DNA of 43,261 nucleotides. Source: Planctomycetales bacterium (lineage in GTDB: Bacteria; Omnitrophota; Gorgyraeia; Zapsychrales; Zapsychraceae). How positions within the stretch are numbered: the stretch's first letter is position 1; each line of letters begins with the position of its first letter. Where the stretch lies: the NCBI GenBank assembly GCA_005239675.1, contig SBBO01000009.1, forward strand, positions 1 to 43,261. Direction: 5' to 3'. Under the pieces are notes generated by a model, which saw nothing but the letters and a program-made list of their open reading frames with translations, had not been told where the DNA came from and ran no database searches. The translations under genes and the position numbers were made by a program. Of the stretch, positions 1 to 43,261 are shown piece after piece.

Positions 1-496
1 GTAGATATGACGCCCGAAATGGTTAAGAAAGCCAAAGACAATGCAAAAAAGAACGGGGTTCATAATGTTGAGTTTAGGCTGGGCGAAATTGAGCAATCGC
101 TCGGTTGATGTGGTTATCAGCAACTGTGTAATTAATCTCTCCGCTGATAAACCAAAAGTCTTTCAAGAGGTAGTAAGGGTCTTAAAGCCAGGTGGAAGAA
201 TAGCGATTTCCGACACGGCCCTTGCCAAAGAGCTTCCCAAGAGAATTCAAGAGAACGTAGAAAGTTATGTGGGTTGTGTCGGAGGCGCAATACTTGTTGA
301 TGAGTATAAGAGACTTGTCGAGACATCGGGTTTGAAAGATGTAAGAATTTCTGTTAAAGGCTCCTCTGCCTGTATTGATCCCAACACAAAAGACCCAATT
401 GGCAGAGCTATTTTAGAGGGCTTGGAAAAAGAGGAGTCTCTTGAGGGTTATGTAGTGAGTGTTTATGTAGAGGGATGGAAGCACCCGGAGGAGTAG
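1..496 (+). pseudogene. arsM: Arsenite S-adenosylmethionine methyltransferase (ArsM), frameshifted and cut by window edge
   Basis: ArsM methylates As(III) with SAM in the cytoplasm. The 5' end lies outside the window. Bases 1-93 read [14 protein letters not shown]...FRLGEIE in frame 1, the ArsM SAM-binding region, then hit a stop at 106. The family sequence resumes in frame 2 at about base 97 as [21 protein letters not shown] and YVGCVGGA (the Cys expected to bind arsenic). The linker of about six residues usually found between GEIE and SVDVV is missing, so a deletion of roughly 17 nt explains the frame change. Downstream the frame is open to the stop at 496, which lies next to an attC-like site, so this was a cassette gene. 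An ATG at 41 opens the second frame, but a protein from it would lack the SAM site. Confidence 0.8.
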
Positions 497-584
497 GCAT
501 AACAGTTCACTGGAGCCGACCGCATAAAGCGTGGTTGATTTTAGTCCGCATCGTTTCGCGGTCGGCTCAGTTTTTTCGTTATGC
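497..584 (+). repeat. attC site 1 (integron cassette recombination site)
   Basis: The outer boxes are GCATAAC (497-503) and GTTATGC (578-584), which are exact reverse complements. The inner arms GAGCCGACCGC (513-523) and GCGGTCGGCTC (557-567) are also exact reverse complements. A short unpaired spacer separates outer and inner arms. This R''-L''-L'-R' layout, with the R' box in GTT-purine form at the 3' end and a length of 88 bp, is that of integron attC sites. It starts right at the stop codon of the arsM remnant, as cassettes do. Confidence 0.82.
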
Positions 585-946
585 CTTATGGGGGCGTAGT
601 GGCCAATTTCAATTCTGAACACAAGGCCGTTCTTGATGACCTGCTCCTTGGCCGCGCTCATGTGCGGCCTGGCAAGATGTTTGGCTTCCCCGCCTATTAT
701 GCTGGGAAGAAGCTCTGCATCTGTCTTTATGAGCAAGGCGTTGGAGTCAAGCTTCCTGAGAAATCGGTCGCAAAGCTGTTGGAGGCGGACCGGAACGCTG
801 TGCCATTCCGACCTATGGGAAAGCCGAAGATGCGTCAGTGGATTCAGATCAATCTGAGCCGCTCGGAGGACTACGTACAGTACCAACCTCTGTTTGAAGA
901 ATCTATCCGTTACCTGCTGGCGCAACAGGCGATGGGAGAATCATGA
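581..946 (+). CDS. TfoX N-terminal-domain-like small protein (cassette gene)
   Basis: A 121-residue protein. Residues about 30-85 (KMFGFPAYYAGKKLCICLY...VKLPEKSVAKLL...VPFRPMGKPKMRQWIQI) have the TfoX_N/DUF1801-like pattern: an MFG motif, a short beta-hairpin, then a PF...G..M stretch. The family role is poorly defined: TfoX proper regulates competence, while stand-alone domains are usually unassigned. The ATG at 581 falls inside the attC R' box and has no clear Shine-Dalgarno; the in-frame GTG at 599, preceded by a G-rich stretch, is an alternative start. The stop overlaps the next start as ATGA, so the two genes share one cassette and are likely translationally coupled. Confidence 0.6.
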   Translation: MPYGGVVANFNSEHKAVLDDLLLGRAHVRPGKMFGFPAYYAGKKLCICLYEQGVGVKLPEKSVAKLLEADRNAVPFRPMGKPKMRQWIQINLSRSEDYVQYQPLFEESIRYLLAQQAMGES

Positions 947-1821
947 GTGACACGAACTGGATTGACCGAGGGGAATATCCGTTTGAACCGCGTCACTTCG
1001 AGGTGTCGGCGGGAAGGCTACACTATGTTGATGAAGGTAGTGGGCAACCCCTTGTCATGATTCATGGCAACCCCACGTGGTCGTTTCTGTATCGCCATCT
1101 CATCAAGCGGCTTCGATCTGAGTACCGCTGTATCGCGGTGGATCACCTTGGCTTTGGTCTATCGGACAAGCCAAGGGATTGGAGCTATCTACCAGAAGAT
1201 CATGCCAAAAATTTAGCGGCCTTGATTGAGGGTCTGGGGTTGAAGGACATCACGCTCGTGCTGCAAGATTGGGGCGGTCCCATCGGCTTGTCCTACGCCG
1301 TTGCTCATCCCGAGAATGTTGGGCGCATCGTTCTCATGAATACTTGGGCGTGGCCGGTCAACCGGGACCTGCACTTTGTCGCCTTCAGTTCTTTCATGGG
1401 CGGACCGATTGGCCGGATGCTCATTCGGCGGTATAACTTTTTTGCTCAGACAATTCTGCGCCAAGCCTTCGGAGACAAGAGCAAGCTGAGCGATGCCGCG
1501 CATGAGCACTACCTCCACCCCCTGGCCATTCCAGAAGATCGCAAAGGGTGCCTCGTGTTTCCAAAACAGATAGTCGCATCCACCCCCTGGCTTGGCCGAC
1601 TCTGGAGCAATATTTCCGCCTTGAGCGGCAAACCTAAATTGTTTGTCTGGGGTATGAAAGACATCGCGTTCCGAGAGAAGGAGTTGAAGCGTTGGGAACG
1701 CGCCTTCCCGGAAGCCCGGTCGATTCGCTTGAGTACGGTAGGCCATTTTGTACAAGAAGAGGCGCCCAATGAACTGGCTGAGGCTCTTCTCTCTTTTCTA
1801 AAAGAGACCGCGCCGGCATAA
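943..1821 (+). CDS. Haloalkane dehalogenase-like alpha/beta hydrolase (cassette gene)
   Basis: A 292-residue single-domain alpha/beta hydrolase with no signal peptide. Visible motifs are the oxyanion HGNPTW (41-46), the nucleophile elbow LQDWGGPIG (107-115) with Asp109 followed by Trp110, the likely acid Asp240 in VWGMKDIAF, and the base His268 in STVGHFVQEEAP. The Asp nucleophile plus adjacent Trp and the acid after strand 7 match haloalkane dehalogenases of subfamily I, which cleave carbon-halogen bonds to alcohols. The substrate cannot be read from sequence, and related proteins include fluoroacetate dehalogenases and uncharacterised hydrolases. It is translationally coupled to the TfoX-like gene, and its stop codon lies inside the R'' box of attC site 2. 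Confidence 0.82.
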   Translation: MSDTNWIDRGEYPFEPRHFEVSAGRLHYVDEGSGQPLVMIHGNPTWSFLYRHLIKRLRSEYRCIAVDHLGFGLSDKPRDWSYLPEDHAKNLAALIEGLGLKDITLVLQDWGGPIGLSYAVAHPENVGRIVLMNTWAWPVNRDLHFVAFSSFMGGPIGRMLIRRYNFFAQTILRQAFGDKSKLSDAAHEHYLHPLAIPEDRKGCLVFPKQIVASTPWLGRLWSNISALSGKPKLFVWGMKDIAFREKELKRWERAFPEARSIRLSTVGHFVQEEAPNELAEALLSFLKETAPA

Positions 1822-1879
1822 CGACAGCTTGCAGCCGACGCCGCCATGTGGGCGCCGCCGCTGAACTCAGTCGTTGGGC
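1816..1879 (+). repeat. attC site 2 (integron cassette recombination site)
   Basis: GCATAAC at 1816-1822 and GTTGGGC at 1873-1879 form the outer boxes; the latter matches the consensus GTTRRRY exactly. The arms between them fold back on each other: GCAGCCGACGCCGCC pairs imperfectly with the GGCGCCGCCGCTG side. Total length is 64 bp. The orientation matches sites 1 and 3, and the site begins within the stop codon of the hydrolase gene. Confidence 0.8.
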
Positions 1880-1905
1880 CGAACCGAAGAAAAAAGAGGA
1901 CGCCA

Positions 1906-2259
1906 TTGAGTTTAAACTCCCGGTACAATTCGCCATCATCAATTGCGTACGCGGTGGCAACCGCCTGTTGGATTGTGAGCGCCGGCCTGGCTGCCCTGTG
2001 GATCGTATTTACTCCGCTTTTGAACGCGCTCGCCAAACCCTCGGACTCATTCAGTGCTGCGCTGAACCTCGGGTTAGGAATTGTCTTTGGCGGCATATGC
2101 TTTTGGGGTGCGGAAATCGTTGCGCTTATCGGGATAGCGGTCAGCGTCACGGGTATGAAATCGGCGAAAGCCGGACGCCTGCGGTTTCCCCTGGCAATAA
2201 ATATATTCATGTTCGGATCATTAATGGGCGTTCTAGTGTGTCTATCGTTTAAACGATGA
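1906..2259 (+). CDS. Small multi-pass membrane protein of unknown function (cassette gene)
   Basis: The reading frame is open from 1846, but that ATG lies in the attC site. The TTG at 1906, with the purine-rich AAGAGGA about 6 nt upstream, is the best start and gives 117 residues. Hydrophobic stretches suggest three or four membrane helices: IAYAVATACWIVSAGLAALW, the long LGLGIVFGGICFWGAEIVAL segment that may cross twice, and FPLAINIFMFGSLMGVLVCL near the C-terminus. I recognise no family. It is the only gene between attC sites 2 and 3, so it forms a one-gene cassette, which is typical for unknown ORFs in arrays. Confidence 0.6.
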   Translation: MSLNSRYNSPSSIAYAVATACWIVSAGLAALWIVFTPLLNALAKPSDSFSAALNLGLGIVFGGICFWGAEIVALIGIAVSVTGMKSAKAGRLRFPLAINIFMFGSLMGVLVCLSFKR

Positions 2260-2283
2260 GAAGGTGCGCGGGTAATTTACTCG

Positions 2284-2351
2284 GCCCAACAAGTTGTTCC
2301 AGCCGACGGCAGCCATCATCGGGCGACGCGGCTGAGCTTGGTTCGTTAGGC
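2284..2351 (+). repeat. attC site 3 (integron cassette recombination site)
   Basis: The outer boxes GCCCAAC (2284-2290) and GTTAGGC (2345-2351) match the consensus RYYYAAC and GTTRRRY perfectly. The inner arm CCAGCCGACGGC pairs with GCGACGCGGCTG with mismatches and an extra base, as usual for attC L boxes. The site is 68 bp long and begins 24 nt after the stop of the small membrane protein gene. Confidence 0.85.
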
Positions 2352-2534
2352 CCTCCGGGTTGGCGGAAACTCGCAAGACATAGGGTGAAACGTTCCCCTT
2401 AGAACAAGGGGACAGTGCACGATTCAAGCGAGGCGTGCTGCATGCACGCAGGATGCCGCCTGCTTCCCGCAGCATATGTTGAGCAGGGGACGTCCTCCTA
2501 ATAGGGGTGGTTCACTTCGAGTGTGAACGAGGTC
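2352..2534 (+). other. Noncoding leader of the fourth cassette-like segment
   Basis: About 180 bp between attC site 3 and the next gene, long for a cassette 5' leader. It contains a short hairpin-like sequence CGTGC-TGCAT-GCACG and the palindrome GGACGTCC near 2490. No convincing gene or promoter is seen. Confidence 0.4.
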
Positions 2535-3089
2535 ATGACGCGTATGCGCATATTCATCTTTCCAATACTCTTGCTCACGTTTTCTTCCATCGCGACTGCC
2601 GAGTGTATGGGGCGTATTCCGCAATACGTGCAGCTCAAGGTGATGTCCTGTGTCAGTGCGATGGAGACAGTGCAAGCGAAAATCGATGGGAAGGGGTATA
2701 CGCAGCGCGAGAGAGTCCATGTCGAGATATCCGCACGTGCTATCAGTATCATCGAGGCCTTTCCCTTAGTCGATGTTGAGATCATACGGTGGAATGTCCA
2801 AGGGCGGGAGTATCTATTTAAGGGTGCCGTGACGCCCAGCGCGTCACAAGCACCGAGGCAATATATGCTGCTTGGTACGTCGCTGGAGTCATGTCAAAAG
2901 TTCTACGCAGACAAGACGGGGTTGTTCATCGTGGATGAGCACTTTTCGTGCTGCCGGGACATGATCGACCTTGATAGGAAGGAGACCGTGGCGCAATGTT
3001 TGCTCGGTCTCCCGTCGGCTGCGTCGTCTGGGCTAGCATTGGAGAGTCTCGATCCTATTGGCATTCCTCTGCCAACACCATCTCGCTAA
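2535..3089 (+). CDS. Secreted Cys-containing protein of unknown function
   Basis: The ATG at 2535 (or 2544) is preferred over the GTG at 2523 because it puts a normal signal peptide at the N-terminus: a short basic start, the core IFIFPILLLTFSSIA and a likely cut after ATA, before Glu-Cys. The mature part has about six Cys (including a CC pair in HFSCCRDM), so disulfides in the periplasm are plausible. No family is recognised. It lies after attC site 3 in the same orientation as the cassette genes, but I find no attC after it. It may be the last, decayed cassette or the flanking chromosome. Confidence 0.6.
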   Translation: MTRMRIFIFPILLLTFSSIATAECMGRIPQYVQLKVMSCVSAMETVQAKIDGKGYTQRERVHVEISARAISIIEAFPLVDVEIIRWNVQGREYLFKGAVTPSASQAPRQYMLLGTSLESCQKFYADKTGLFIVDEHFSCCRDMIDLDRKETVAQCLLGLPSAASSGLALESLDPIGIPLPTPSR

Positions 3090-3155
3090 TGGTCCGTATC
3101 CAGGCGACGTGTTTGACAGCATGACCGTATTCCTAATGAATTTATAGACTAATGA

Positions 3156-3169
3156 TACCTTAAAAGGTA
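3156..3169. promoter_or_regulatory. HipB operator O1
   Basis: Inverted repeat TACC-TTAAAA-GGTA, the most upstream of four similar sites before hipB. Its centre is 31 bp from O2. Confidence 0.7.
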
Positions 3170-3186
3170 TAATTATTATTTATATA

Positions 3187-3200
3187 TACCCTTAGAGGTA
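3187..3200. promoter_or_regulatory. HipB operator O2
   Basis: Inverted repeat TACC-CTTAGA-GGTA, the same half-sites as O1. It is 31 bp from both O1 and O3, about three helical turns. Confidence 0.72.
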
Positions 3201-3217
3201 TAAAAATATTAATTATA

Positions 3218-3231
3218 TACCCTTAATGGTA
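3218..3231. promoter_or_regulatory. HipB operator O3
   Basis: Inverted repeat TACC-CTTAAT-GGTA, 31 bp after O2 and just upstream of the -35 box of the hipBST promoter. Confidence 0.72.
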
Positions 3232-3249
3232 ATAATCTGTAAAAATTTG

Positions 3250-3278
3250 TTGAAATTATACCCGAAAGGTGTTATATT
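3250..3278 (+). promoter_or_regulatory. hipBST promoter, sigma70-type
   Basis: TTGAAA (3250-3255), a 17 bp spacer and TATATT (3273-3278), about 40 nt before the hipB start. Operator O4 lies inside the spacer, so repressor binding would block RNA polymerase directly. Confidence 0.72.
3259..3271. promoter_or_regulatory. HipB operator O4 (in promoter spacer)
   Basis: Imperfect inverted repeat TACC-CGAAA-GGTG, one base shorter than O1-O3. It is 41 bp after O3, about four helical turns, so all four operators face the same side of the helix. Confidence 0.6.
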
Positions 3279-3318
3279 TATTTTGTTACGATGAAATCAG
3301 AAACCTTAGGAGAGATCA

Positions 3319-3516
3319 ATGACCATTAACATATCTTCTCAAGTCAAAGACTTGCGTAAAAAAATTGGTTTGACCCAAATAGAGTTTGCCAAACGAGTGG
3401 GGGTTGGCTTGCGTTTCTTAAGAGAACTTGAACAGGGCAAGACAACAGTAAGAATGGATAAACTTATGCAAGTCTTAGATTTTTTGGGATGTTACTTAGA
3501 GATAAAGAAAAAATGA
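3319..3516 (+). CDS. hipB: HipB-like HTH antitoxin/repressor
   Basis: A 65-residue XRE-family helix-turn-helix protein. Residues about 8-60 form the five-helix fold: LRKKIGLTQIEFAKRVGV, then the recognition segment GLRFLRELEQGK, then MDKLMQVLDFLGC. In HipB families the protein binds operator inverted repeats and autorepresses the operon. Four TACC/GGTA inverted repeats lie just upstream and are the obvious targets. AGGAGA about 6 nt before the ATG is a good ribosome site. The gene is first in the order hipB-hipS-hipT, 48 nt ahead of hipS. In characterised HipBST systems HipB contributes to the complex, while HipS is the antitoxin that neutralises the kinase. Confidence 0.85.
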   Translation: MTINISSQVKDLRKKIGLTQIEFAKRVGVGLRFLRELEQGKTTVRMDKLMQVLDFLGCYLEIKKK

Positions 3517-3564
3517 ATCACCATCGATTAAACATCCGAAAACTGATTTGATGGATACTAACCA

Positions 3565-3894
3565 ATGAGCATGATGAGAAAAGCCAACGTTTTTTACAAT
3601 AATGAAATAGCAGGATATCTCAGTGAATCTTTAGATGGGTATATTTTTCAATATGATCTTGAATTTTTAAAGAAAAATATACCGCTCTCGATTTCTCTGC
3701 CGCCTAGTCCAGAGCCCTACCATTCAAAAGAGTTGTTTCATTTTTTTAAAGGCCTTTTACCGGAAGGATGGTACCTGAATATCGTCACTACGACTCAGAA
3801 AATTGACAATAAAGATTATTTTGGGGTGCTAATCGGGACAGCGAGTGTGGATACAATCGGCGCTGTTACAGTGAGGAAGGAAAACCCATCATAA
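3565..3894 (+). CDS. hipS: HipS, separate HipA N-terminal subdomain (antitoxin)
   Basis: A 109-residue protein equal to the HipA N-terminal subdomain only (HipN/Couple_hipA). Family motifs are present: VFYNNEIAGYLSE near the start, ISLPPSPEPY (about 46-55), LFHFFKGLLPEGW (about 58-70), and the end IGTASVDTIGAVTV corresponding to the GxDxxGAV segment of HipA. In classical HipBA systems this region is fused to the kinase. Here a true stop (TAA) separates them, followed 20 nt later by the kinase ATG, and the kinase begins at the natural domain border. This is the HipBST arrangement, where HipS inhibits the HipT kinase. A broken hipA is less likely because both pieces are complete domains. Confidence 0.8.
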   Translation: MSMMRKANVFYNNEIAGYLSESLDGYIFQYDLEFLKKNIPLSISLPPSPEPYHSKELFHFFKGLLPEGWYLNIVTTTQKIDNKDYFGVLIGTASVDTIGAVTVRKENPS

Positions 3895-3914
3895 ACGAGA
3901 AGTTTCTTAAAGAG

Positions 3915-4754
3915 ATGTTTAATTCTTCCAAGCTGCCCAAGATTGATTTCGGTTTGGCAGACATATTGCAACAGGCTCAGAAATTGGTGGGGAAGCTATC
4001 TATCTCGGGTGTGCAGCCAAAATTATCCGTCAAACTGGACAAGAAGCAAAATTTGCTGATTGTTGTGAGTCAAGGAGGCGAATATATTTTAAAGCCGCAG
4101 ACCTCCACATTTGCCCATATCCCGGAGAACGAACAATGCTGCATGGACATGGCACAAGAGTTAGGCATCGATGCACCGCCTCATTGCTTGATTCCCTTAA
4201 AAGATAAAAGCCTTGCTTATGTGGTCCAGAGATTCGACAGAGAAAAAGGAGATAAGATTCATCAGGAAGATTTTGCGCAGATCCTTGAGGCCAATGATAA
4301 ATATAGGGGGTCGGTGGAACAGATAGGTCACAAACTCAAAGAAATATCTTCGGCCCCTGGTTACGATGCTCAACTTTTGTTTGAACGGGTTGTGTTTAAC
4401 TTTATTATTGCCAATGGTGATGCGCATTTGAAGAATTATTCTATATCATACAAAGGGGGCAATATTCGGTTAACGCCCGTTTATGATATCGTGTGCTCTC
4501 GACTTGTAATTCCTGACGAACAGGGAGAGTCTGCGATCAACATCAATGGCAAGAAAGATCGTTTATCAAGGGCAGATTTTGATAAATTAGCAGAGTATTT
4601 GAATATGCCGATTAAAGTGCGTTATGAGAAGTTCGCTGGAAAATTTGAAATCATGAAAAAATTTATCAAGGCTTCTTATTTTAGTAAAGCGGACCAGAAT
4701 AAATTTCTGGATATTATTAAAGAAAGATTGCATCGCTTAGGGTTATCGGAATAA
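3915..4754 (+). CDS. hipT: HipT serine/threonine-kinase toxin
   Basis: A 279-residue HipA C-terminal-type kinase without the N-terminal subdomain. It has the Gly-rich loop with an SIS motif (Ser29-Ile-Ser31, then GVQPK), Lys60 in EYILKPQ for ATP, the catalytic loop NGDAHLKN (Asp169, Asn174) and metal-binding Asp191 in TPVYDIV. HipT of enteropathogenic E. coli autophosphorylates the two Ser of its SxS motif and phosphorylates tryptophanyl-tRNA synthetase, halting translation; the same target here is only inference. All catalytic residues are intact. The operon is AT-rich compared with the cassettes before it and the cluster after it, suggesting acquisition as a unit. Confidence 0.83.
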   Translation: MFNSSKLPKIDFGLADILQQAQKLVGKLSISGVQPKLSVKLDKKQNLLIVVSQGGEYILKPQTSTFAHIPENEQCCMDMAQELGIDAPPHCLIPLKDKSLAYVVQRFDREKGDKIHQEDFAQILEANDKYRGSVEQIGHKLKEISSAPGYDAQLLFERVVFNFIIANGDAHLKNYSISYKGGNIRLTPVYDIVCSRLVIPDEQGESAININGKKDRLSRADFDKLAEYLNMPIKVRYEKFAGKFEIMKKFIKASYFSKADQNKFLDIIKERLHRLGLSE

Positions 4755-6112: not shown

Positions 6113-7127
6113 GAGCTTTAAGGTCCATTATACCTGGATCTATGTGACCGAGCGCTGCAACTTGCATTGCGATTATTGTTTTTTTCGCCACATGCACGGT
6201 CGGGAGATATCCTTAGATGCAGTCGAGCAGCTTTTTTTGCTGTTTGAAAGAGAGGAAACGGCCCCCACCACCTTGATCTTTAGCGGGGGGGAGGCGTTCT
6301 TAGCCAAGGAGAACCTATTTAAGATTTTAAACGAGGCCCACCAGCGTTTAAAAGAGACATCTTTGCATATTCAAACAAACGGTTTGTTGATCAACGCAGC
6401 GGATATTGTCCAGTTACGGGAGTTGGGGGTCAGTCTTGAGTTTGGCATTGATGGTAATTCTCAAACAACGCTGGAACACCGTTGCGGGTTAAAACCGGCG
6501 TCTTTTGAGAAGTTGACCAATACCATTGCTCAATGCGTGGCCGCGGGCATCTCGTGTGGCTCTACCATGACGGTTCATCCCCATGAAGTTGAACACATGG
6601 AGCAGGGGTTAGATTTCTTAAGAAGTATAGGGATGCCTCATGTGGACATAACCCCTGCCGCTTTTATGCCATGGACGCCTGAACTGGTTGCCTCTTTTAA
6701 GAAGAATTACCTGGCGCTGGCCCGCTGCCGCGAACGGCGACGGGTCATGTATGCCAATGAGGATATTGAGTGGATCAGTCCAGGGGTCATGGATCTAAGT
6801 CTTCACCCGCCGAATTATTTGTTTGGAGGCGATGCCTTCCTGTGCCTTCCAGAGGAGAAACGACTCGAGTTTACCCTTTGGAATCCTGTTAATGGTCAGT
6901 TCCGGCCGGAGATCATGTCGATCTATGAAGACGCCTACGCAAAAATGCACCAACAGCACCCACGACTTCCTTACCGCGAACATGTCTGCCACAGCTTTGA
7001 GTTGATGAACACGATGATGGGCACAGAATATATGAACACCTGGGCGATCAACGATATTATGCGGTTTTTAACAAAGACCCATTTGAGATTAAGGCTTAAG
7101 AAATATGGACATGATCAAGGGCATTAA
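6069..7127 (+). CDS. Radical SAM enzyme A (cluster)
   Basis: The start at 6069 is chosen because AGGA lies about 8 nt upstream; the frame is open to 6030, and 6093 is a later option. From 6069 it has 352 residues. The cluster motif CNLHCDYC gives Cys30, Cys34 and Cys37, which bind the SAM-coordinating [4Fe-4S]. The SGGEAF motif (72-77) contacts the SAM amino group, and QTNG and GIDGN mark later strands of the barrel. The C-terminal part has only scattered Cys, so no SPASM or Twitch auxiliary cluster is evident. The gene is sandwiched between the ANL enzyme and a second, similar radical SAM gene, overlapping both. The reaction is unknown. Confidence 0.85.
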   Translation: MERLDTLLMQEKRPKSFKVHYTWIYVTERCNLHCDYCFFRHMHGREISLDAVEQLFLLFEREETAPTTLIFSGGEAFLAKENLFKILNEAHQRLKETSLHIQTNGLLINAADIVQLRELGVSLEFGIDGNSQTTLEHRCGLKPASFEKLTNTIAQCVAAGISCGSTMTVHPHEVEHMEQGLDFLRSIGMPHVDITPAAFMPWTPELVASFKKNYLALARCRERRRVMYANEDIEWISPGVMDLSLHPPNYLFGGDAFLCLPEEKRLEFTLWNPVNGQFRPEIMSIYEDAYAKMHQQHPRLPYREHVCHSFELMNTMMGTEYMNTWAINDIMRFLTKTHLRLRLKKYGHDQGH

Positions 7128-8148
7128 TCATGTATGGCTATTTTTTACAGACCGTTGCAATTTAGGCTGTGGGTATTGTTTCTATAAATACCGGACCCAG
7201 CAGCAGGTGATCACGCTCAAGACTTTCGAGAATATCTTGAATTATATCCGTCCTGTTGCGCCGGTGGAATTTATCTTTTCGGGAGGTGAGCCGTTAATGG
7301 ACGCTGAACGACTCAAGGAAATGGTCACGATCATACGTCAGGAGGGTTTAAGTCGGTATATCTCCGTTCAAACCAACGCGACCTTGCTGGATGAGTCTTT
7401 GATGGAGTTTTTTCTGCAGCATGGGGTAAATCTTGAAGTCGGGATTGACGGGGATGAAGCCACCACCCAGCGCAATAGGCCTGGCATTGGCGAGTATTAT
7501 TATCGAGATATCGTCAGAGGCGTTGCTCGGGTGATCCACGCGAAGGGGCCCATGACCGCGACCATGGTGGTGCATCCCTCTAGCGTTGGGAAACTCTTTG
7601 AGAATGTGCAATATTTAGCCGCCATGGGATTAAAATCATTGGAAGTCCATCCCGCCTTCCTTGAGGTGTGGGGGCCAAGGTCTTCCGCTATCTTTTTAGA
7701 TCAATATCGTCGGGTTTGTGCGTGGGAATTAAGAGAAGGACGCCATGGGCTGATTGGCCGGGGGTATAGTGAGCCATCGCAGGGGGGTTGGGACCTGTTA
7801 TCCGTTCCTAGCGGGAAGATCCTGGCAAACTGGTTGTTGCTATCTTTTCCCGAGGAGGTACGTGAGCATCTTTACTTGATGGATTTTAGTAATGGATCGT
7901 CGGGAAAATTCCTGCCGCAGGCAAGAGGGTATTTTCAGGCATTACAAGAACATATGATGAGCCATCCGAATTGCAGTTATCGCAGTATTAGCAATTTTAA
8001 TGCCTCTTATGCGGTCAAGACACCGCCCGGGCGTCGGTACGAAGAGAGGGTTAAGCATTACATGGACCTATGTGAATGGATTGAGGCCATTGATCATAAG
8101 ATGATGAGGACGCTACCATGGCAACGATCAGGTACGAAAGTCTCTTAG
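7105..8148 (+). CDS. Radical SAM enzyme B (cluster), paralogue of A
   Basis: A 347-residue radical SAM protein with CNLGCGYC (Cys18, Cys22, Cys25) near the N-terminus and SGGEPL (59-64). It tracks enzyme A segment by segment: FIFSGGEPLM/LIFSGGEAFL, QTNATLL/QTNGLLI, LEVGIDGD/LEFGIDGN, TMVVHPSSV/TMTVHPHEV and EVHPAFLEVW/DITPAAFMPW. The two are therefore tandem, diverged paralogues. The C-terminal half lacks a Cys-rich SPASM region. It overlaps the end of enzyme A by 23 nt and the following aminotransferase by 31 nt, so all three are likely translationally coupled. A shared substrate scaffold with two successive radical steps is an inference. Confidence 0.85.
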   Translation: MDMIKGINHVWLFFTDRCNLGCGYCFYKYRTQQQVITLKTFENILNYIRPVAPVEFIFSGGEPLMDAERLKEMVTIIRQEGLSRYISVQTNATLLDESLMEFFLQHGVNLEVGIDGDEATTQRNRPGIGEYYYRDIVRGVARVIHAKGPMTATMVVHPSSVGKLFENVQYLAAMGLKSLEVHPAFLEVWGPRSSAIFLDQYRRVCAWELREGRHGLIGRGYSEPSQGGWDLLSVPSGKILANWLLLSFPEEVREHLYLMDFSNGSSGKFLPQARGYFQALQEHMMSHPNCSYRSISNFNASYAVKTPPGRRYEERVKHYMDLCEWIEAIDHKMMRTLPWQRSGTKVS

Positions 8149-9233
8149 TTGAGCAAGCCTTGGCGCGGGAATACGCATCAGCGATGGAGTGTGCCCTGAA
8201 AGGCATGAGTGGGCTTAATGATATTAAACGGATGGTTCAGGATTATGAGAAAAAATTCGCCACTTATATCGGAGTTAAGAATGCGGTAGCGGTCAATTCC
8301 GGGAGCGACGCCTTGAAGATGGCCTTGTTGGCCGCGGGGGTGAATCCCGGTGATGAGGTTATTGTCCCGGATTTGACTTATCAGGCGGTCGCCTTGGCGG
8401 TATTTTATTGCGGGGCTAAACCGGTGCCCGTGGATGCCTCTAGGCACGATCTACAAATGGACCCGGCAGCTGTTGAAGCTGCGATGACCGCCAGGACCAA
8501 GGCGGTCATCGCAGCCCATATGTTCGGGCGTCCCTGTGATGTGGAGCGCATTGGTAGGCTCTGTCAGGATCAAAAGATCGTTTTTATCGAGGATGTTTGC
8601 CAGGCGGAGAGTTCGAAGTATAAGAACCGGATGCTGGGCAGCTTTGGTGATATTGCCGTATTTTCTTTTTCCTATTACAAACCATTATCGTCCTGCGCTG
8701 GCGGCGGCGGGATGGTTGTTTTTAATGAGGAACGATACCAGCGCATTCGTCATTGGATGGAAGATTGGCGCGATGACCGTGAGTTGTTAAAATTAGGACA
8801 GCGTTTCGCCCCCATGTCATTCCTGGACCTGATTGCCCTGCAGGTCAAATTCACTCATCTCAAGGAAATCATCGCGTCCCGTCAAAAGATCAAGACGTAT
8901 TATGAGGATGAGCTTGAGCTGATCGATGGCTTGACAATTTTTAGGGATCGTCCTGATAGAGAGAGTGTCCCGCAAAATTTTGTTGTTTGCTGCGAAAATC
9001 GAGATGAGTTTTTTGATTTCTTGACGAGTCAGCAGGTCATGGCCCAGAGGCCTTACTTATCCCTTCATGAGAGACAGGCGTTCAGGGGAGCTTTAAAAGA
9101 GAGATTTCCTGTCAGCCAATGGTATGCGTCAACGGCCTTGCACCTTCCGTTATATTCGTTCATGAGCGTGACCAAGGCCGTTGGCGTTGTGGAATGTTGC
9201 CGGTCTTTTTTTGTTGGGAGTGCTCGTTCATGA
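8118..9233 (+). CDS. DegT/DnrJ/EryC1-family PLP aminotransferase
   Basis: A 371-residue fold-type I PLP enzyme. Visible are NSGSDALKMALLA (60-72, phosphate loop), VIVPDLTYQA (81-90), VFIEDVCQAE (155-164) with Asp159 for the pyridine nitrogen, and FSFSYYKPLSS (182-192) with Lys188 as the Schiff-base lysine, followed by a Gly-rich GGGGM. This family transaminates keto-sugars or cyclitols (dTDP-/UDP-keto-sugars, scyllo-inosose) or makes AHBA. The VPDLTYQA and GGMV segments are typical. It points to an amino sugar or aminocyclitol step in the cluster. It overlaps radical SAM B at the start and ends in an ATGA overlap with radical SAM C. Confidence 0.87.
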   Translation: MATIRYESLLVEQALAREYASAMECALKGMSGLNDIKRMVQDYEKKFATYIGVKNAVAVNSGSDALKMALLAAGVNPGDEVIVPDLTYQAVALAVFYCGAKPVPVDASRHDLQMDPAAVEAAMTARTKAVIAAHMFGRPCDVERIGRLCQDQKIVFIEDVCQAESSKYKNRMLGSFGDIAVFSFSYYKPLSSCAGGGGMVVFNEERYQRIRHWMEDWRDDRELLKLGQRFAPMSFLDLIALQVKFTHLKEIIASRQKIKTYYEDELELIDGLTIFRDRPDRESVPQNFVVCCENRDEFFDFLTSQQVMAQRPYLSLHERQAFRGALKERFPVSQWYASTALHLPLYSFMSVTKAVGVVECCRSFFVGSARS

Positions 9234-10243
9234 AGCCATTACTTAATGATATTACCATCGAAATAACCAATCGCTGCCAACTGCACTGTCAGCATTGCGG
9301 GATATGGGCGGAAAAAGAGCGCTACGAGATGAGCGCTTCGATGGTTATCCGCACGCTGCGAGAATTGCTTGGCCGTTATAAGATTTATTTTGTATCCTTG
9401 ACCGGGGGTGAGCCGTTCTTAAATAAGGATTGCGGTCGATTGTTAAAGGCTGTGTCTTTTTTTCGTGATCGCGGGGATATCACCGGATTCGGCGTTTACA
9501 GTAACGCGGCTTATTTTGAAGGAGTCCGGCGCGCGTTCTCTACCTATGGCGCGTATCTGCGCGGGATGCATATGGGGATCAGTATCGATGGTGGAGAAAA
9601 AACGCATGATCGTTTACGTGGTCCGGGGGCGTACCAAAAAACGTTGAAGACCATTGACTGGGTCGCCGAGAACTTCGGTAAAGACATCGTATTGGAATTT
9701 AAATTTACCATCAACCAGATCAATTATGCCGAATTAGGCGATGTCTATCATCTGGCCCGCCGTTTTAAGGCGCGGTTTTCTCCCAAGATCATGGAGACAG
9801 GCGTATTCGATTACTATCACCGCCATGAAATGCCCAATACCGACACCCTAGCTTCGATGACCCCTGAAATCATCGAGAGTGTCCACCGGCAAGTGGACGC
9901 CCTACTTAAAGACGATTATCCCGGTGTTAACAGGGAATTGGTCGAAGCCATGATGGTATTGTTATCCGCTGGCAAGCAATGTATCCGCGCTTGCGCCACC
10001 CCGGCCCGGTCTCTTTTTATCACTTCCCGGCGAGATGTCCACCCTTGTCTTTACCTACCGTCAGCAGGCAAGGTCAGCGGTGACGGAAAATTACCGCAAG
10101 AATTAGACTGTGTGCGTAAGAAACACGCGGATAATGCCGCCCTCGGTCATTGCCCGCGTTGCTTTGCCTATCATGGATTTTTGAAAGAATTTAATTTACA
10201 GTATCTTGAACGACAAGACGCGCCGCAACATCAGCCCCATTAA
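9230..10243 (+). CDS. Radical SAM enzyme C with Cys-rich C-terminus (cluster)
   Basis: The ATG at 9230 overlaps the stop of the aminotransferase as ATGA and places the cluster motif CQLHCQHC (Cys16, Cys20, Cys23) normally near the N-terminus; the frame is also open to 9119. The protein has 337 residues. TGGEPF (58-63) follows. The C-terminus holds Cys251, Cys255, Cys273, Cys294 and a CPRC pair (308-311), which suggests a SPASM/Twitch-like auxiliary iron-sulfur cluster, often seen in peptide- or sugar-modifying radical SAM enzymes. It ends the first operon and converges with the minus-strand glycosyltransferase, overlapping it by 53 nt. Confidence 0.83.
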   Translation: MKPLLNDITIEITNRCQLHCQHCGIWAEKERYEMSASMVIRTLRELLGRYKIYFVSLTGGEPFLNKDCGRLLKAVSFFRDRGDITGFGVYSNAAYFEGVRRAFSTYGAYLRGMHMGISIDGGEKTHDRLRGPGAYQKTLKTIDWVAENFGKDIVLEFKFTINQINYAELGDVYHLARRFKARFSPKIMETGVFDYYHRHEMPNTDTLASMTPEIIESVHRQVDALLKDDYPGVNRELVEAMMVLLSAGKQCIRACATPARSLFITSRRDVHPCLYLPSAGKVSGDGKLPQELDCVRKKHADNAALGHCPRCFAYHGFLKEFNLQYLERQDAPQHQPH

Positions 10244-11393
10244 ACCAATCAGCGGGAGCTGGAGTAGGGCGCCGGCGGGTCATTTGTTCTTTGATCGCAA
10301 AAGCGAGGGAATCGCCTGTCATGGTGTTACCATCAAGGACAAGACTTGAGAAGTGTTTTTGCAGCAGCTGAGCTCGGGCGATTTGGTCATTGGTGGGCAT
10401 TGAAAAATTTGTGTTTCGATAGGGAATGATGACCGATGGTATGCCATAGCGCATCAATTGGACCGATGTATTGTAGCCGCATAAGCTAACCGAGACCCGG
10501 CAATGACGCAGGTGATCATCAAGATTATCTAAATAATTGGTTAGAAAGACACGCCCTTTGTCTTGGGGCTTAAGGCAGGATTGGAATAGGGCCATCTCTT
10601 CAGGAGAGGTGGCTGGGCCGCAGGCGATGATCGTAGAGATATTGGCCCTGATGTGGCGCTGGGCCTCAATGGCAAGCTTAATCAACTTTGGATATACAGC
10701 GCCACCACCACGACTGATGACCAGGGTTTTTGACTCGGCATTCTTTTGGGTCGGCAATGGCGTGCCGCCGGTTATTATTTTTGTCGGAAAGATATAGCCG
10801 GTGTAGACAATCTTTTTTCTTAAGTCTTTGATAATAGCAGCGTAGGAGCCAGATAAGATCGGGGATTGCAGGGTGGCCTGGATGTATTGAGTTTCAAGTT
10901 CCGGGGGGGTATGGATCAAGAAAGTATCATAGAAGGCAAAGATAGCCCGCTGCAAGGCTGCGAACTTTTGATTTTGAAACCGGTCTAGATTAACGAGTAA
11001 GGGATATCCAATGCTGGCCATAATGCGAGCGCCTCTTTTGTAGAGGTAGCGTAAAGGGGCCAGGAGTTCTGGCATATAGGCTAGCCGTCCGAAAGGGAAG
11101 AACTCGGTAATAAAAACATCTGGGCAAAAATCAGCTGCTGCCTTGATAATAAATTGGGCGCGTTTTTGGAAATATACGGGTTGATGGTGTGATTTAAAAC
11201 TGGTACGGTTATCAAAAGGAAAAGGAATATCCAGCACCCGGCAGCCTTTTGGAAAACAGATGAAGGGTTGCGGTTCCGCGCCCTGGAGGACTAGTACTTC
11301 TGCGCCATAATGAGCTAGGGTTCTGGCCAGGGTGATTGTTCGGGTAGTATGCCCCAGGGTCTGTTTGTGAGTGTAATGAAGTAAGACGCGCAT
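10191..11393 (-). CDS. Predicted GT-B glycosyltransferase (COG4671/MurG-like)
   Basis: A 400-residue protein with the N-terminal Rossmann start MRVLLHYTHKQTLGHTTRT, where GHTTR matches the GH.TR loop of GT-B enzymes that act on membrane-near acceptors. A second Rossmann half begins about residue 225 with TLVISRGGGAVYPKLIKLA. Late motifs CGYNTSVQLMRYGIPSVIIPYRN (about 305-330) are the nucleotide-sugar binding loop typical of MurG and COG4671 proteins. It probably transfers a sugar to a cluster product. It is transcribed opposite to its neighbours. The region between its start and the deacetylase gene (11394-11428) holds a palindromic -10-like AGTATACT. Confidence 0.78.
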   Translation of the reverse strand: MRVLLHYTHKQTLGHTTRTITLARTLAHYGAEVLVLQGAEPQPFICFPKGCRVLDIPFPFDNRTSFKSHHQPVYFQKRAQFIIKAAADFCPDVFITEFFPFGRLAYMPELLAPLRYLYKRGARIMASIGYPLLVNLDRFQNQKFAALQRAIFAFYDTFLIHTPPELETQYIQATLQSPILSGSYAAIIKDLRKKIVYTGYIFPTKIITGGTPLPTQKNAESKTLVISRGGGAVYPKLIKLAIEAQRHIRANISTIIACGPATSPEEMALFQSCLKPQDKGRVFLTNYLDNLDDHLRHCRVSVSLCGYNTSVQLMRYGIPSVIIPYRNTNFSMPTNDQIARAQLLQKHFSSLVLDGNTMTGDSLAFAIKEQMTRRRPTPAPADWFNGADVAARLVVQDTVN

Positions 11394-11428: not shown

Positions 11429-12139
11429 ATGATCCGTGCACGTCTTTTTATTCGCAACGACGATGTCTGGACGTTAGATAAGAATTTTCGTTTCTTTTTT
11501 GATCTGGCCATTGACCGTAAGCTACCGGTCATCTATGCGGTCATTCCTGGAAAAATGGAGCAGGGGCTTATTCGGTTCCTGTGTCGGGCCAAGGAAAAGA
11601 CACCCGGCTTGCTGGATATCGTCCAGCACGGATGGCTTCATGTGAACCATTCGACAAACGGTAGTCAAAAATATGAATTTGGGGAATCACGGTCTTTCCA
11701 GCGGCAGCGTGAAGACATTCAGCGAGGGTTAAAACAGATGCGTTTGGCGTTCGAGGACCATTTCATGCCAGCGTTTGTCCCCCCTTTTCATGGTTATGAT
11801 GAGCGGACATTACGGATACTAGAGCAAGAGAACTTTCAGATCTTTTCTGCTGGAGGCCGTAAGCCACAGATAAAATCACGATTAGTAGAATTGCCGTCTA
11901 GAATTTCTTTTAGTAGATATGACAGTCAAAAGGTTTCGATTAATACCGCTGGGGAGATGATGGCCATGCTGGTAAGGGACATAGGCCGTAGGCCATTGTC
12001 TGGTATAGTGACTCATCACGCAGATTTTGTGACAGCGGCATCCCGTAAAGAATTGACACAATTTTTTAGTATTGTCGAGGCGTTAAAGAACACAAAAGAA
12101 TGGCGAATATTGTTATTTTCCGATCTCTGGGGGAAATGA
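11429..12139 (+). CDS. Polysaccharide-deacetylase-like protein
   Basis: A 236-residue protein with a NodB-like pattern: FIRNDDVW near the start (Asp pair for metal and base), VQHGWLHVNH (about 65-74) supplying metal His, PAFVPPFHGYDERTL (about 113-127) like the R/P-PF.GY active-site strand, and the late ...GIVTHHADF. This fits deacetylases that remove N- or O-acetyl groups from amino sugars, close to the DUF2334/WalW-type branch. No signal peptide is seen, so it may act on a cytoplasmic or lipid-linked sugar. It starts the second short operon of the cluster and is followed 3 nt later by radical SAM D. The substrate is unknown. Confidence 0.72.
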   Translation: MIRARLFIRNDDVWTLDKNFRFFFDLAIDRKLPVIYAVIPGKMEQGLIRFLCRAKEKTPGLLDIVQHGWLHVNHSTNGSQKYEFGESRSFQRQREDIQRGLKQMRLAFEDHFMPAFVPPFHGYDERTLRILEQENFQIFSAGGRKPQIKSRLVELPSRISFSRYDSQKVSINTAGEMMAMLVRDIGRRPLSGIVTHHADFVTAASRKELTQFFSIVEALKNTKEWRILLFSDLWGK

Positions 12140-38891: not shown

Positions 38892-38989
38892 TTAATTAGT
38901 TTTGTTCATTTAAAATCAGGGCATGTATTAACGATAAAGGTCAACTTCCGTTTTGCCATCGATTGTGGCGAACGGATCCGTCAGGATTT

Positions 38990-39080
38990 CTGGCGGAATC
39001 CGAAAGGATAGGGCGCAAAGCTTAAGAGAGCCTAACCTTCGTCTTTTAAAAGAGGCGAGGCAAGGCAGTCAGCTGCCGAA
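38990..39080 (+). ncRNA. Cyclic-di-GMP-I (GEMM-I) riboswitch
   Basis: The order of elements matches GEMM-I. A hairpin ATCC-GAAA-GGAT carries the GNRA tetraloop (38998-39009). GGGCGCAAAGC follows (39011-39021; consensus GGACGCAAAGCC), then GCCTAA (39030-39035). A second arm, CC...CTTTTAAAAGAGGCGAGG, comes next, then a hairpin GGCAG-TCAG-CTGCC closing near 39078, in the place of the tetraloop-receptor stem. GEMM-I aptamers bind c-di-GMP and in many bacteria control motility and surface proteins. The downstream terminator makes transcription control likely. The P1 helix is not certain. Confidence 0.75.
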
Positions 39081-39184: not shown

Positions 39185-40093
39185 ATGAACACAGCAAAAG
39201 AGAGTATGTGGTTGCCGTTGGTCGTGGTATTGTTGTCTTGGGGGGCTATGATGATTGTTGCTCCTAATACAGCCTGGGCTCTCTCTAGCGAAGAGCTCGA
39301 TAAGGTCGTTGAGGAAATTAAACATAAGGAAGAGGCCGGAGAGGTGAGCTCAAAGGAAGCGAATGTGATGTTAGAAGAGCTCAAAGAGGCGGTGGAAGAA
39401 GGCGACATCTCTTATGACGAAAAAGAGGAGCGAGACGTCATTGAAGATTTCTTGGATGATCCTCAAGAAAGGATAAAGGCTGTTGAGAAAATGTTGCAAG
39501 ACAAAGAAAAGATCCTCGCGGAAGGAGACATCACGCCAGAGGAGTTTGATAGGGTTTTACAAGCAATCCGGGAAGAAACTGACCCGGAGAAGTTTGCTAC
39601 GGTGATGAGGGAAGTGTTTGAGAAAGATGATGCCCTCAGCGAGGATCATGATGACGATGAAGATCATTGGAAAGAATTTATAGGGGCCCCTTCGGACAAC
39701 GAAGAAGGGATCGATGTCTTAAGAGAAGCCATTGAGAAACATTACGGTGATGAGGCTGAAGAACGATTTCATGAAATCGGCTTAAGTATGGAACATGAGA
39801 CACAGGGCGTCGATTTTGAGGATATGACCCCTGATCAGCAATGGGAGATGGCTGAGAAAATGGGCGTCACCAGAGAAGAGTTTGAGAAGTATCATGACGA
39901 AGGCCATGAGGCCATGGAGCGCATGGCCCGTGAGCATGGCTTTGATCGGGAGACCATGGAACGGGAGATGATGGAGAGAGAAGGCATTGAATATGAACGA
40001 CCCCCGGTAGGGGATTATCAAGAATTTACCCCTCATACCGGAGCAGATTCCTCTCATCCCGAGGGAAGTTTTCCTCCCCCTCCCGGAGGATAG
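39185..40093 (+). CDS. Acidic secreted protein under c-di-GMP riboswitch
   Basis: A 302-residue protein with a signal peptide (MWLPLVVVLLSWGAMMIVAPNTAWA) and a very acidic, helical mature part. Short repeats occur: EEAGEVSSKEA, EEGDISYDEKE and AEGDITPEEFD, each helix-loop-like; DDALSEDHDDDEDHW and repeated ERMAREHG/METMEREMM-like helices follow. The C-terminus PEGSFPPPPGG is Pro/Gly-rich. No family is recognised; the acid residues could bind Ca2+ or other cations, and the spacing recalls EF-hand loops without fitting them exactly. AGGGAGGGG gives a strong ribosome site. Likely function lies outside the cytoplasm, in biofilm or adhesion. Confidence 0.75.
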   Translation: MNTAKESMWLPLVVVLLSWGAMMIVAPNTAWALSSEELDKVVEEIKHKEEAGEVSSKEANVMLEELKEAVEEGDISYDEKEERDVIEDFLDDPQERIKAVEKMLQDKEKILAEGDITPEEFDRVLQAIREETDPEKFATVMREVFEKDDALSEDHDDDEDHWKEFIGAPSDNEEGIDVLREAIEKHYGDEAEERFHEIGLSMEHETQGVDFEDMTPDQQWEMAEKMGVTREEFEKYHDEGHEAMERMAREHGFDRETMEREMMEREGIEYERPPVGDYQEFTPHTGADSSHPEGSFPPPPGG

Positions 40094-42030: not shown

Positions 42031-43229
42031 CCATGTTTTCTCAGCGTACCCATTGGCCTTTATCTTCCAACCGCATTACCCAGACCCTGGATGCCCTGCG
42101 TCGTGACCGGGTAGAGGTCATTGACTTAACTGAGTCTAATCCCACCCGTTGTGGGTTTCGTTATCCGGCTAGAAAAATTTTGCGACCATTTACGGCCAAA
42201 GGAAATTTGTTCTACAATCCACAGTCGCAAGGAGCCTGGCACACCCGCGAGGCGGTATGCCGGTATTACAAAAATCAAGGGCATACATTGTCGGCGCAGC
42301 GCGTATTCCTGACTGCCAGCACATCAGAGGCTTACTCATATATTTTTCAGCTGTTGTCCGATCCTGGCCAAGAAATTCTTTTTCCACAACCGAGCTATCC
42401 CTTGTTCCAGTTTTTAGGGGATCTGAATAGTATTATCCTGCGCTACTATCCTTTGGTGTATACGGATAGTTGGCGAATCGATATACAAGCCATGGAAGAT
42501 GCCGTTGGCCCTCAGGCAAGGGCGATTGTCTTGGTTAATCCGAATAATCCCACCGGTTCATTCATTAACCAGGATGAGCTGGGTGCCTTAAACAGGTTGT
42601 GCCGTCAAAGAAATATGGCGCTGATTTGTGATGAGGTATTTAACGAATTCACATTTGTCGATGATAAGCCCCCGTTGAGTTTGGTCGGTTGTGATACAGC
42701 GTTGACATTTATTCTCGGGGGCCTATCCAAGACGCTCGGACTACCCCAGATGAAGCTTGGCTGGATCATCGTTAACGGCCCAGCGGAATTGGCAGACGCG
42801 GCCTGCCAGCGCTTGGAGGTGATCGCGGATACGTATCTGTCCGTGAATACACCAGTCCAGAATGCGGCAGTATCTTGGTTTTGTTTAAAAGAAGAGCTAC
42901 AAGGACAGATCAGGCAGCGTATTCGGGGTAATTGGAAATTTCTTCGGGACGCAATGCACGGCGCGGTTCACTATGGGCTGTTGAATGCCGAAGGCGGCTG
43001 GTATGCCGTGATGAGGACCGCGACAGGCGGCTGCGAGGAAGACCTAGTCTGTACCTTGTTGGAGAAAGACCATGTCTATGTACATCCCGGATATTTTTTT
43101 GATTTTGACCCCTCACGCGTACGTAGGGTTTTTAAGGCAGAGGGTTTCTTGGTTGTCAGTTTGTTGCCCAGGCCGCCGGTTTTTCAGGAAGGAATTGCGC
43201 GCCTTACCGATCGTTTGGCGACGCGATAG
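42027..43229 (+). CDS. Class I/II PLP aminotransferase
   Basis: A 400-residue fold-type I PLP enzyme. LVNPNNPTGSF (about 172-182) contains the pyridoxal Asn, LICDEVFNEF (about 199-208) the Asp, and GGLSKTLGLPQMKLGW (about 234-249) the Schiff-base Lys and the phosphate-binding Lys/Arg region. The early ESNPTR motif is typical of aspartate/tyrosine aminotransferases; substrate is not certain. It is complete: the stop is at 43229. Confidence 0.88.
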   Translation: MTMFSQRTHWPLSSNRITQTLDALRRDRVEVIDLTESNPTRCGFRYPARKILRPFTAKGNLFYNPQSQGAWHTREAVCRYYKNQGHTLSAQRVFLTASTSEAYSYIFQLLSDPGQEILFPQPSYPLFQFLGDLNSIILRYYPLVYTDSWRIDIQAMEDAVGPQARAIVLVNPNNPTGSFINQDELGALNRLCRQRNMALICDEVFNEFTFVDDKPPLSLVGCDTALTFILGGLSKTLGLPQMKLGWIIVNGPAELADAACQRLEVIADTYLSVNTPVQNAAVSWFCLKEELQGQIRQRIRGNWKFLRDAMHGAVHYGLLNAEGGWYAVMRTATGGCEEDLVCTLLEKDHVYVHPGYFFDFDPSRVRRVFKAEGFLVVSLLPRPPVFQEGIARLTDRLATR

Positions 43230-43261
43230 TTCTCGTTCCCTATAGTTTAAGTGAAGTTTAA

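Follow-up and report, generated by a model that had tools for sequence, protein, structure and literature searches.

A cassette array of integron type, without a detected integrase, in a genome of an uncultured Omnitrophota genus

Palindromic sites near the left end of the window (the whole 43,261-bp stretch of DNA analysed here, which forms contig C45 of a 1.32-Mb bin) raise the question of whether a genome of this uncultured bacterial lineage carries an integron cassette array and, if so, where the integrase belonging to it lies.

attC sites in the window

The initial annotation had proposed three attC of 88, 64 and 68 bp in one orientation, and all three are present on the + strand. These are site 1 at 497-584 (R'' GCATAAC / R' GTTATGC), site 2 at 1816-1879 (R'' GCATAAC / R' GTTGGGC) and site 3 at 2284-2351 (R'' GCCCAAC / R' GTTAGGC), the last being the final recognisable attC of the array. 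The outer boxes read as had been claimed, with the R' of sites 2 and 3 exact to GTTRRRY and that of site 1 off by one base. The inner arms, described as palindromic, do pair, with extrahelical bases as in real attC and two extra mismatches in the inner stem of site 2. Relative to shuffled sequences, site 1 folds with a z-score of -5.6 on both strands and site 2 with -2.7 on the bottom strand against -0.3 on the top strand, and the bottom-strand fold of site 3 (z -0.3) is no better than the shuffles.

A covariance model (R1) was made from 14 class 1 integron attC of plasmid records, with zero window sequences in its training. The plasmid integrons were fetched with an AadA1 query sequence, used for this purpose only, and the structure, comprising R and L stems with two unpaired positions, was written on the 14 aligned attC. 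In the 43-kb window R1 gave exactly three matches, all on the + strand, with none further even at E<=10: site 1 at 45.8 bits (E 4.5e-10), site 2 at 33.4 bits (E 1.2e-6) and site 3 at 38.3 bits (E 5.5e-8). The initial annotation had staked its reading on such scores, and none of the three sites failed. Across the bin, R1 found attC only on C45 and on a second contig, C49; elsewhere in the 1.32 Mb there were zero matches at E<=1, so the model produces no stray matches in the bin at that threshold. A scan with Rfam at the gathering cut-off returned no match to an attC family. The R''-L''-L'-R' architecture with extrahelical bases, in a single orientation, was found both with the covariance model and in the alignment. 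It is that of class 1 integron attC (59-base elements), which also share the CAGCCGAC-type L'' and whose model finds the array; in contrast to class 1 integrons, the array is without intI1/attI1 and no resistance cassettes were seen in it, and four of its sites, 86-88 bp in length and with a longer loop, belong together as a family.

Cassette genes and probable continuation of the array on a second contig

Site 1 closes a cassette whose gene is the C-terminal part of arsM (arsenite methyltransferase; 1..496, + strand; match to NF008823 of NCBIfam), with arsenic methyltransferases as its closest PDB relatives. A frameshift near 95-105, between the two pieces that match NF008823, either reflects a true mutation or stems from faulty assembly at the end of the contig. 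The arsM stop (494-496) directly touches site 1 and the stop of the following hydrolase gene (1819-1821) falls within site 2, an arrangement that the initial annotation had already described. The hydrolase belongs to a two-gene cassette (579..1873, + strand) which starts with TTATGC and ends in R'' GCATAAC. Its first gene (581-946, + strand) encodes a TfoX_N/YjbR-like protein (Pfam TfoX_N, E 1.8e-4, below the curated cut-off) and its second (943-1821, + strand) a haloalkane-dehalogenase-like alpha/beta hydrolase (Pfam Abhydrolase_1, E 8.4e-30; NCBIfam haloalkane dehalogenase, E 6.6e-79, below the curated cut-off). The third-cassette segment (1874..2345, + strand), from TTGGGC to R'' GCCCAAC, encodes a small hydrophobic protein with no Pfam match, which probably uses an in-cassette TTG start at 1906 and a stop at 2259. 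The trailing segment (2346..3154, + strand) has no attC, a GC content of ~0.53 like the cassettes, and an ORF at 2523-3089 with no Pfam or NCBIfam match; it probably represents a final cassette from which the attC has disappeared. Other cassette products of the array are two polyketide_cyc2/SRPBCC-like proteins and a DUF6855 protein. Expression of the cassette genes probably occurs by putative read-through or from local promoters.

Homologues of the hydrolase at 69-75% identity are found in Halomonas and in MAGs of Chloroflexi, Gammaproteobacteria and Eisenbacteria. The flanks of these homologues (loci L007-L012) gave no attC at E<=1, and they therefore do not trace the donor of the cassette. 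Plasmids yielded hydrolase matches at <60% identity only.

Contig C49 (12,249 bp) carries all of its attC on the minus strand. Seven were matched by R1 at E<0.01 and two degenerate sites were read by eye from their boxes and spacing, one of these having a weak R1 match (14 bits) and the other none. In reverse-complement positions the nine lie at 6895-6980, 7629-7667 (degenerate), 8115-8181, 8669-8732, 9174-9260, 9690-9776, 10640-10692 (degenerate), 11083-11150 and 12048-12107. Read on this strand, C49 terminates within MDREKTKKVVREAYGKIAESPDSHGCCSCGPDATEFAKSV, directly after an attC with R' GTTATGC, and MDREKTKKVVREAYGKIAESPDSHGCCSCGPDATEFAKSV, the N-terminus of such an enzyme, matches positions 3-35 of the arsenite methyltransferase model NF008823. 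The start of the window covers positions 108-139 and 145-268 of this model, with no overlap with the C49 portion, and the first R'' of the window (GCATAAC) is the complement of the GTTATGC of the last C49 attC. Since the arsM halves occupy non-overlapping model positions and these R' and R'' match, C49 and the window very probably constitute, judging from their sequences, a single array interrupted within the arsM cassette, which would begin on C49, with a gap of ~200 bp (~65 codons); the physical join would run across arsM. No exact overlap of at least 15 bases was found between C49 and the window, and the first 130 bp of the window had no match in any other contig. The joined array very probably comprises ~12 attC and at least 11 cassettes over the two contigs, with an attC spacing of 0.4-1.4 kb.

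In an integron cassette, the R' at the start and the R'' at the end stem from one recombination site and hence match. Over the 12 sites in joined order, closure was exact in 7 bases for 6 of the 11 cassettes, one of them being the cassette at the C49-window join, and 69 of 77 bases agreed in total. A result as good as 69/77 was obtained in 0 of 200,000 permutations (mean 54.7), and at least six exact closures in ~2 per 100,000. Site 1 shares 78-84% identity with three of the C49 attC, and pairwise identity among the four sites is 78-86% over 86-88 bp, which indicates a common attC lineage for part of the array; the remaining attC differ. A shorter pattern for this 86-88 bp family had no match in viral contigs. 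The proposal of an integron-type cassette array is thus supported by an independent covariance model, by cassette closure and by the layout of genes and attC.

Integrase search, flanks and alternative explanations

No integrase is present in the window, as the initial annotation had stated, and the upstream search for intI that it had recommended, carried out through C49, found none on that contig. None of the proteins in the bin exceeded the TIGR02249 cut-off for IntI, although at a bin completeness of 87% this does not prove absence. The only tyrosine recombinases matched, one of 290 aa and the other of 297 aa, fall below the cut-off; both match TIGR02249 in two pieces omitting positions ~189-239, the IntI-specific extra region, and are for this reason assigned to the Xer type. 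An intI with this extra region, which marks a complete integron, was not found in the bin. A tblastn search of C49 and the window with translated phylum IntI loci (n=11) yielded no IntI remnant, a control weaker than 11 proteins because for at least one locus, L027, the longest frame was not the IntI frame. The outer flanks of the array carry ordinary chromosomal genes without intI on both sides. On C49 the left boundary adjoins a radical SAM gene, not intI, and the 6.4 kb before the first attC encode a 145-aa protein and radical SAM, glycosyltransferase-like, prepilin-peptidase-like and radical SAM/SPASM proteins.

A CALIN (cluster of attC lacking integron-integrase) consists of at least two attC <4 kb apart with no associated integron-integrase. 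Three attC at such spacing are found in the window and seven at E<0.01 on C49, and no integrase is associated with them, within the limits set by the 87% completeness and the gap in arsM. Judged by the assembly as it stands, the array is a CALIN; it is assigned as such rather than as a complete integron because no intI was found via C49. In our view it is highly likely, and the best explanation, that the left end of the window is the downstream part of a chromosomal integron-type array without a cis integrase.

A complete integron, with its intI and attI on an unassembled or unbinned piece, is improbable. It would be in keeping with an array split at contig ends in an incomplete bin, with the inflation of CALIN counts by draft genomes (PMC9024848) and with the occurrence of one same-family genome that has an IntI with an adjoining attC. 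However, the array has its left end on C49, where the 6.4-kb upstream flank is without an integrase, and the remaining gap, inside arsM, is too short at ~65 codons for intI.

The origin of the array or its contigs from another organism, through mis-binning, is very improbable. The GC content of the array (0.52-0.53) is unlike that of the flanks (0.44-0.47) and the hydrolase has its 69-75% homologues in the distinct groups named above, but the window runs unbroken from the array into 40 kb with a GC content of 0.474. The right 20 kb match all five genus relatives in pieces, with long stretches at 68-75% DNA identity, so that the contig is not foreign. Between ~4.9 and 15.5 kb the window is variable, with almost no match in the genus. 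The foreign segment is bounded on the right by position 3155, from which homology to the genus relative G328 extends, and the DNA of a hip operon (3155-4754) shares 78% identity with that genome. The left flank of C49 had no DNA match in genus relatives, and it is placed on the strength of the array and of a ~100-bp terminal sequence (L065 12150-12249) at the left end of the contig, common to the ends of ~20 other contigs of the bin. This shared sequence probably represents the border of a high-copy repeat or transposable element at which the assembly breaks up. That the attC are chance inverted repeats or transcription terminators, as their palindromes at gene ends and the poor bottom-strand fold of site 3 might suggest, is refuted by the covariance model and cassette closure, and the model scores, the confinement of the sites to one strand, the matching of their boxes and the seven additional attC of C49 leave this explanation with practically no probability.

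A number of other features were observed in the window. The hip operon adjoining the array (3319-4754) encodes a HipB-like HTH protein (over the cut-off of TIGR03070), a separate HipA N-terminal-domain protein (over the cut-off of TIGR03071) and a HipA_C kinase-like protein, and this three-gene layout is that of the HipBST toxin-antitoxin system. Upstream of the hipB-like gene, an A+T-rich stretch (3155-3275) holds repeated imperfect palindromes of TATACCCTTAGAGGTATA type, which are possible operators. A c-di-GMP-I riboswitch just over the gathering score lies at 38982-39080; the ORF downstream of it, at 39185, has no Pfam match. The final 99 bp (43163-43261) recur, reverse-complemented, at the end of contig C17, and the window therefore probably joins C17 in the assembly graph.

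Mechanism and relatives of the array

The substrate of IntI in integrons is the bottom strand of attC in folded form, which the enzyme binds and recombines at R'. In the CALIN described here, each attC is carried by the preceding cassette gene. Its bottom strand would fold into a hairpin bound by IntI, and a cassette would be excised or inserted in circular form by recombination between the G and TT of R'. Most likely the array arose by such IntI action on folded attC, through an integrase that may since have been lost or may have acted in trans from another genome. It is predicted to be a cassette store at present, movable only with IntI in trans, that is, should an IntI enter the cell. Loss of intI, rearrangement and off-target insertion have been proposed as origins of CALINs (PMC8618304), and the data do not choose among the three.

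In the phylum, R1 finds arrays around IntI genes, and the claim of the initial annotation that integrons are less documented in candidate phyla is partly answered, several genomes of the phylum having complete integrons. A literature search on integrons and Omnitrophota/Omnitrophica turned up the two only as separate topics. Within the same class, locus L103 (G119:C3:160001-179421) is a complete chromosomal integron with 14 attC, mostly of 74-77 bp, which follow an intI of opposite direction. Complete integrons such as this one resemble the array in their single orientation and in being matched by R1, but they have an intI over the TIGR02249 cut-off, and the attC run of G119 is near-homogeneous at 74-77 bp. 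In the family, attC were found at E<=0.001 in 8 of 32 genomes, and G188 was the only family member over the cut-off among the IntI matches listed. Its IntI (L028, on G188:C45) has one attC upstream on the opposite strand and adjoins genes resembling those of cobalamin biosynthesis, as read by eye. In the genus, G000, G224 and G328 all have attC, with no IntI over the cut-off among the genus genomes listed. These three genomes are the basis of a further, unlikely reading in which a genus without resident IntI repeatedly gains arrays by off-target cassette insertion, with the integrase supplied in trans by community members.

Like the CALINs reported with IntegronFinder, the array lacks an integrase, includes some degenerate attC and has two or more attC that all point the same way, and it differs from them in its ~12 attC, against a reported mean of almost 6, and in its uncultured bacterial lineage (PMC9024848; PMC8618304). 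Archaeal integrons and CALINs are likewise known through MAGs and are mostly CALINs, but the array described here is bacterial (PMC9668308). CALINs are thus a previously described kind of element; what is new is the host lineage and the cassette contents, and the array is not put forward as a first report.

The array also shows that the missing half of a split array can be located, which resolves a CALIN lying at a contig edge. Integron parts can now be tallied at phylum level, with IntI over the curated cut-off in 18 of 384 genomes and attC at E<=1e-5 in 42 of 384. With this array, the range of cassette arrays grows to include an uncultured bacterial genus, and the evidence for a native contig is good. 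Genes for arsenic methylation and for a haloalkane-dehalogenase-like enzyme are packaged in it as cassettes.
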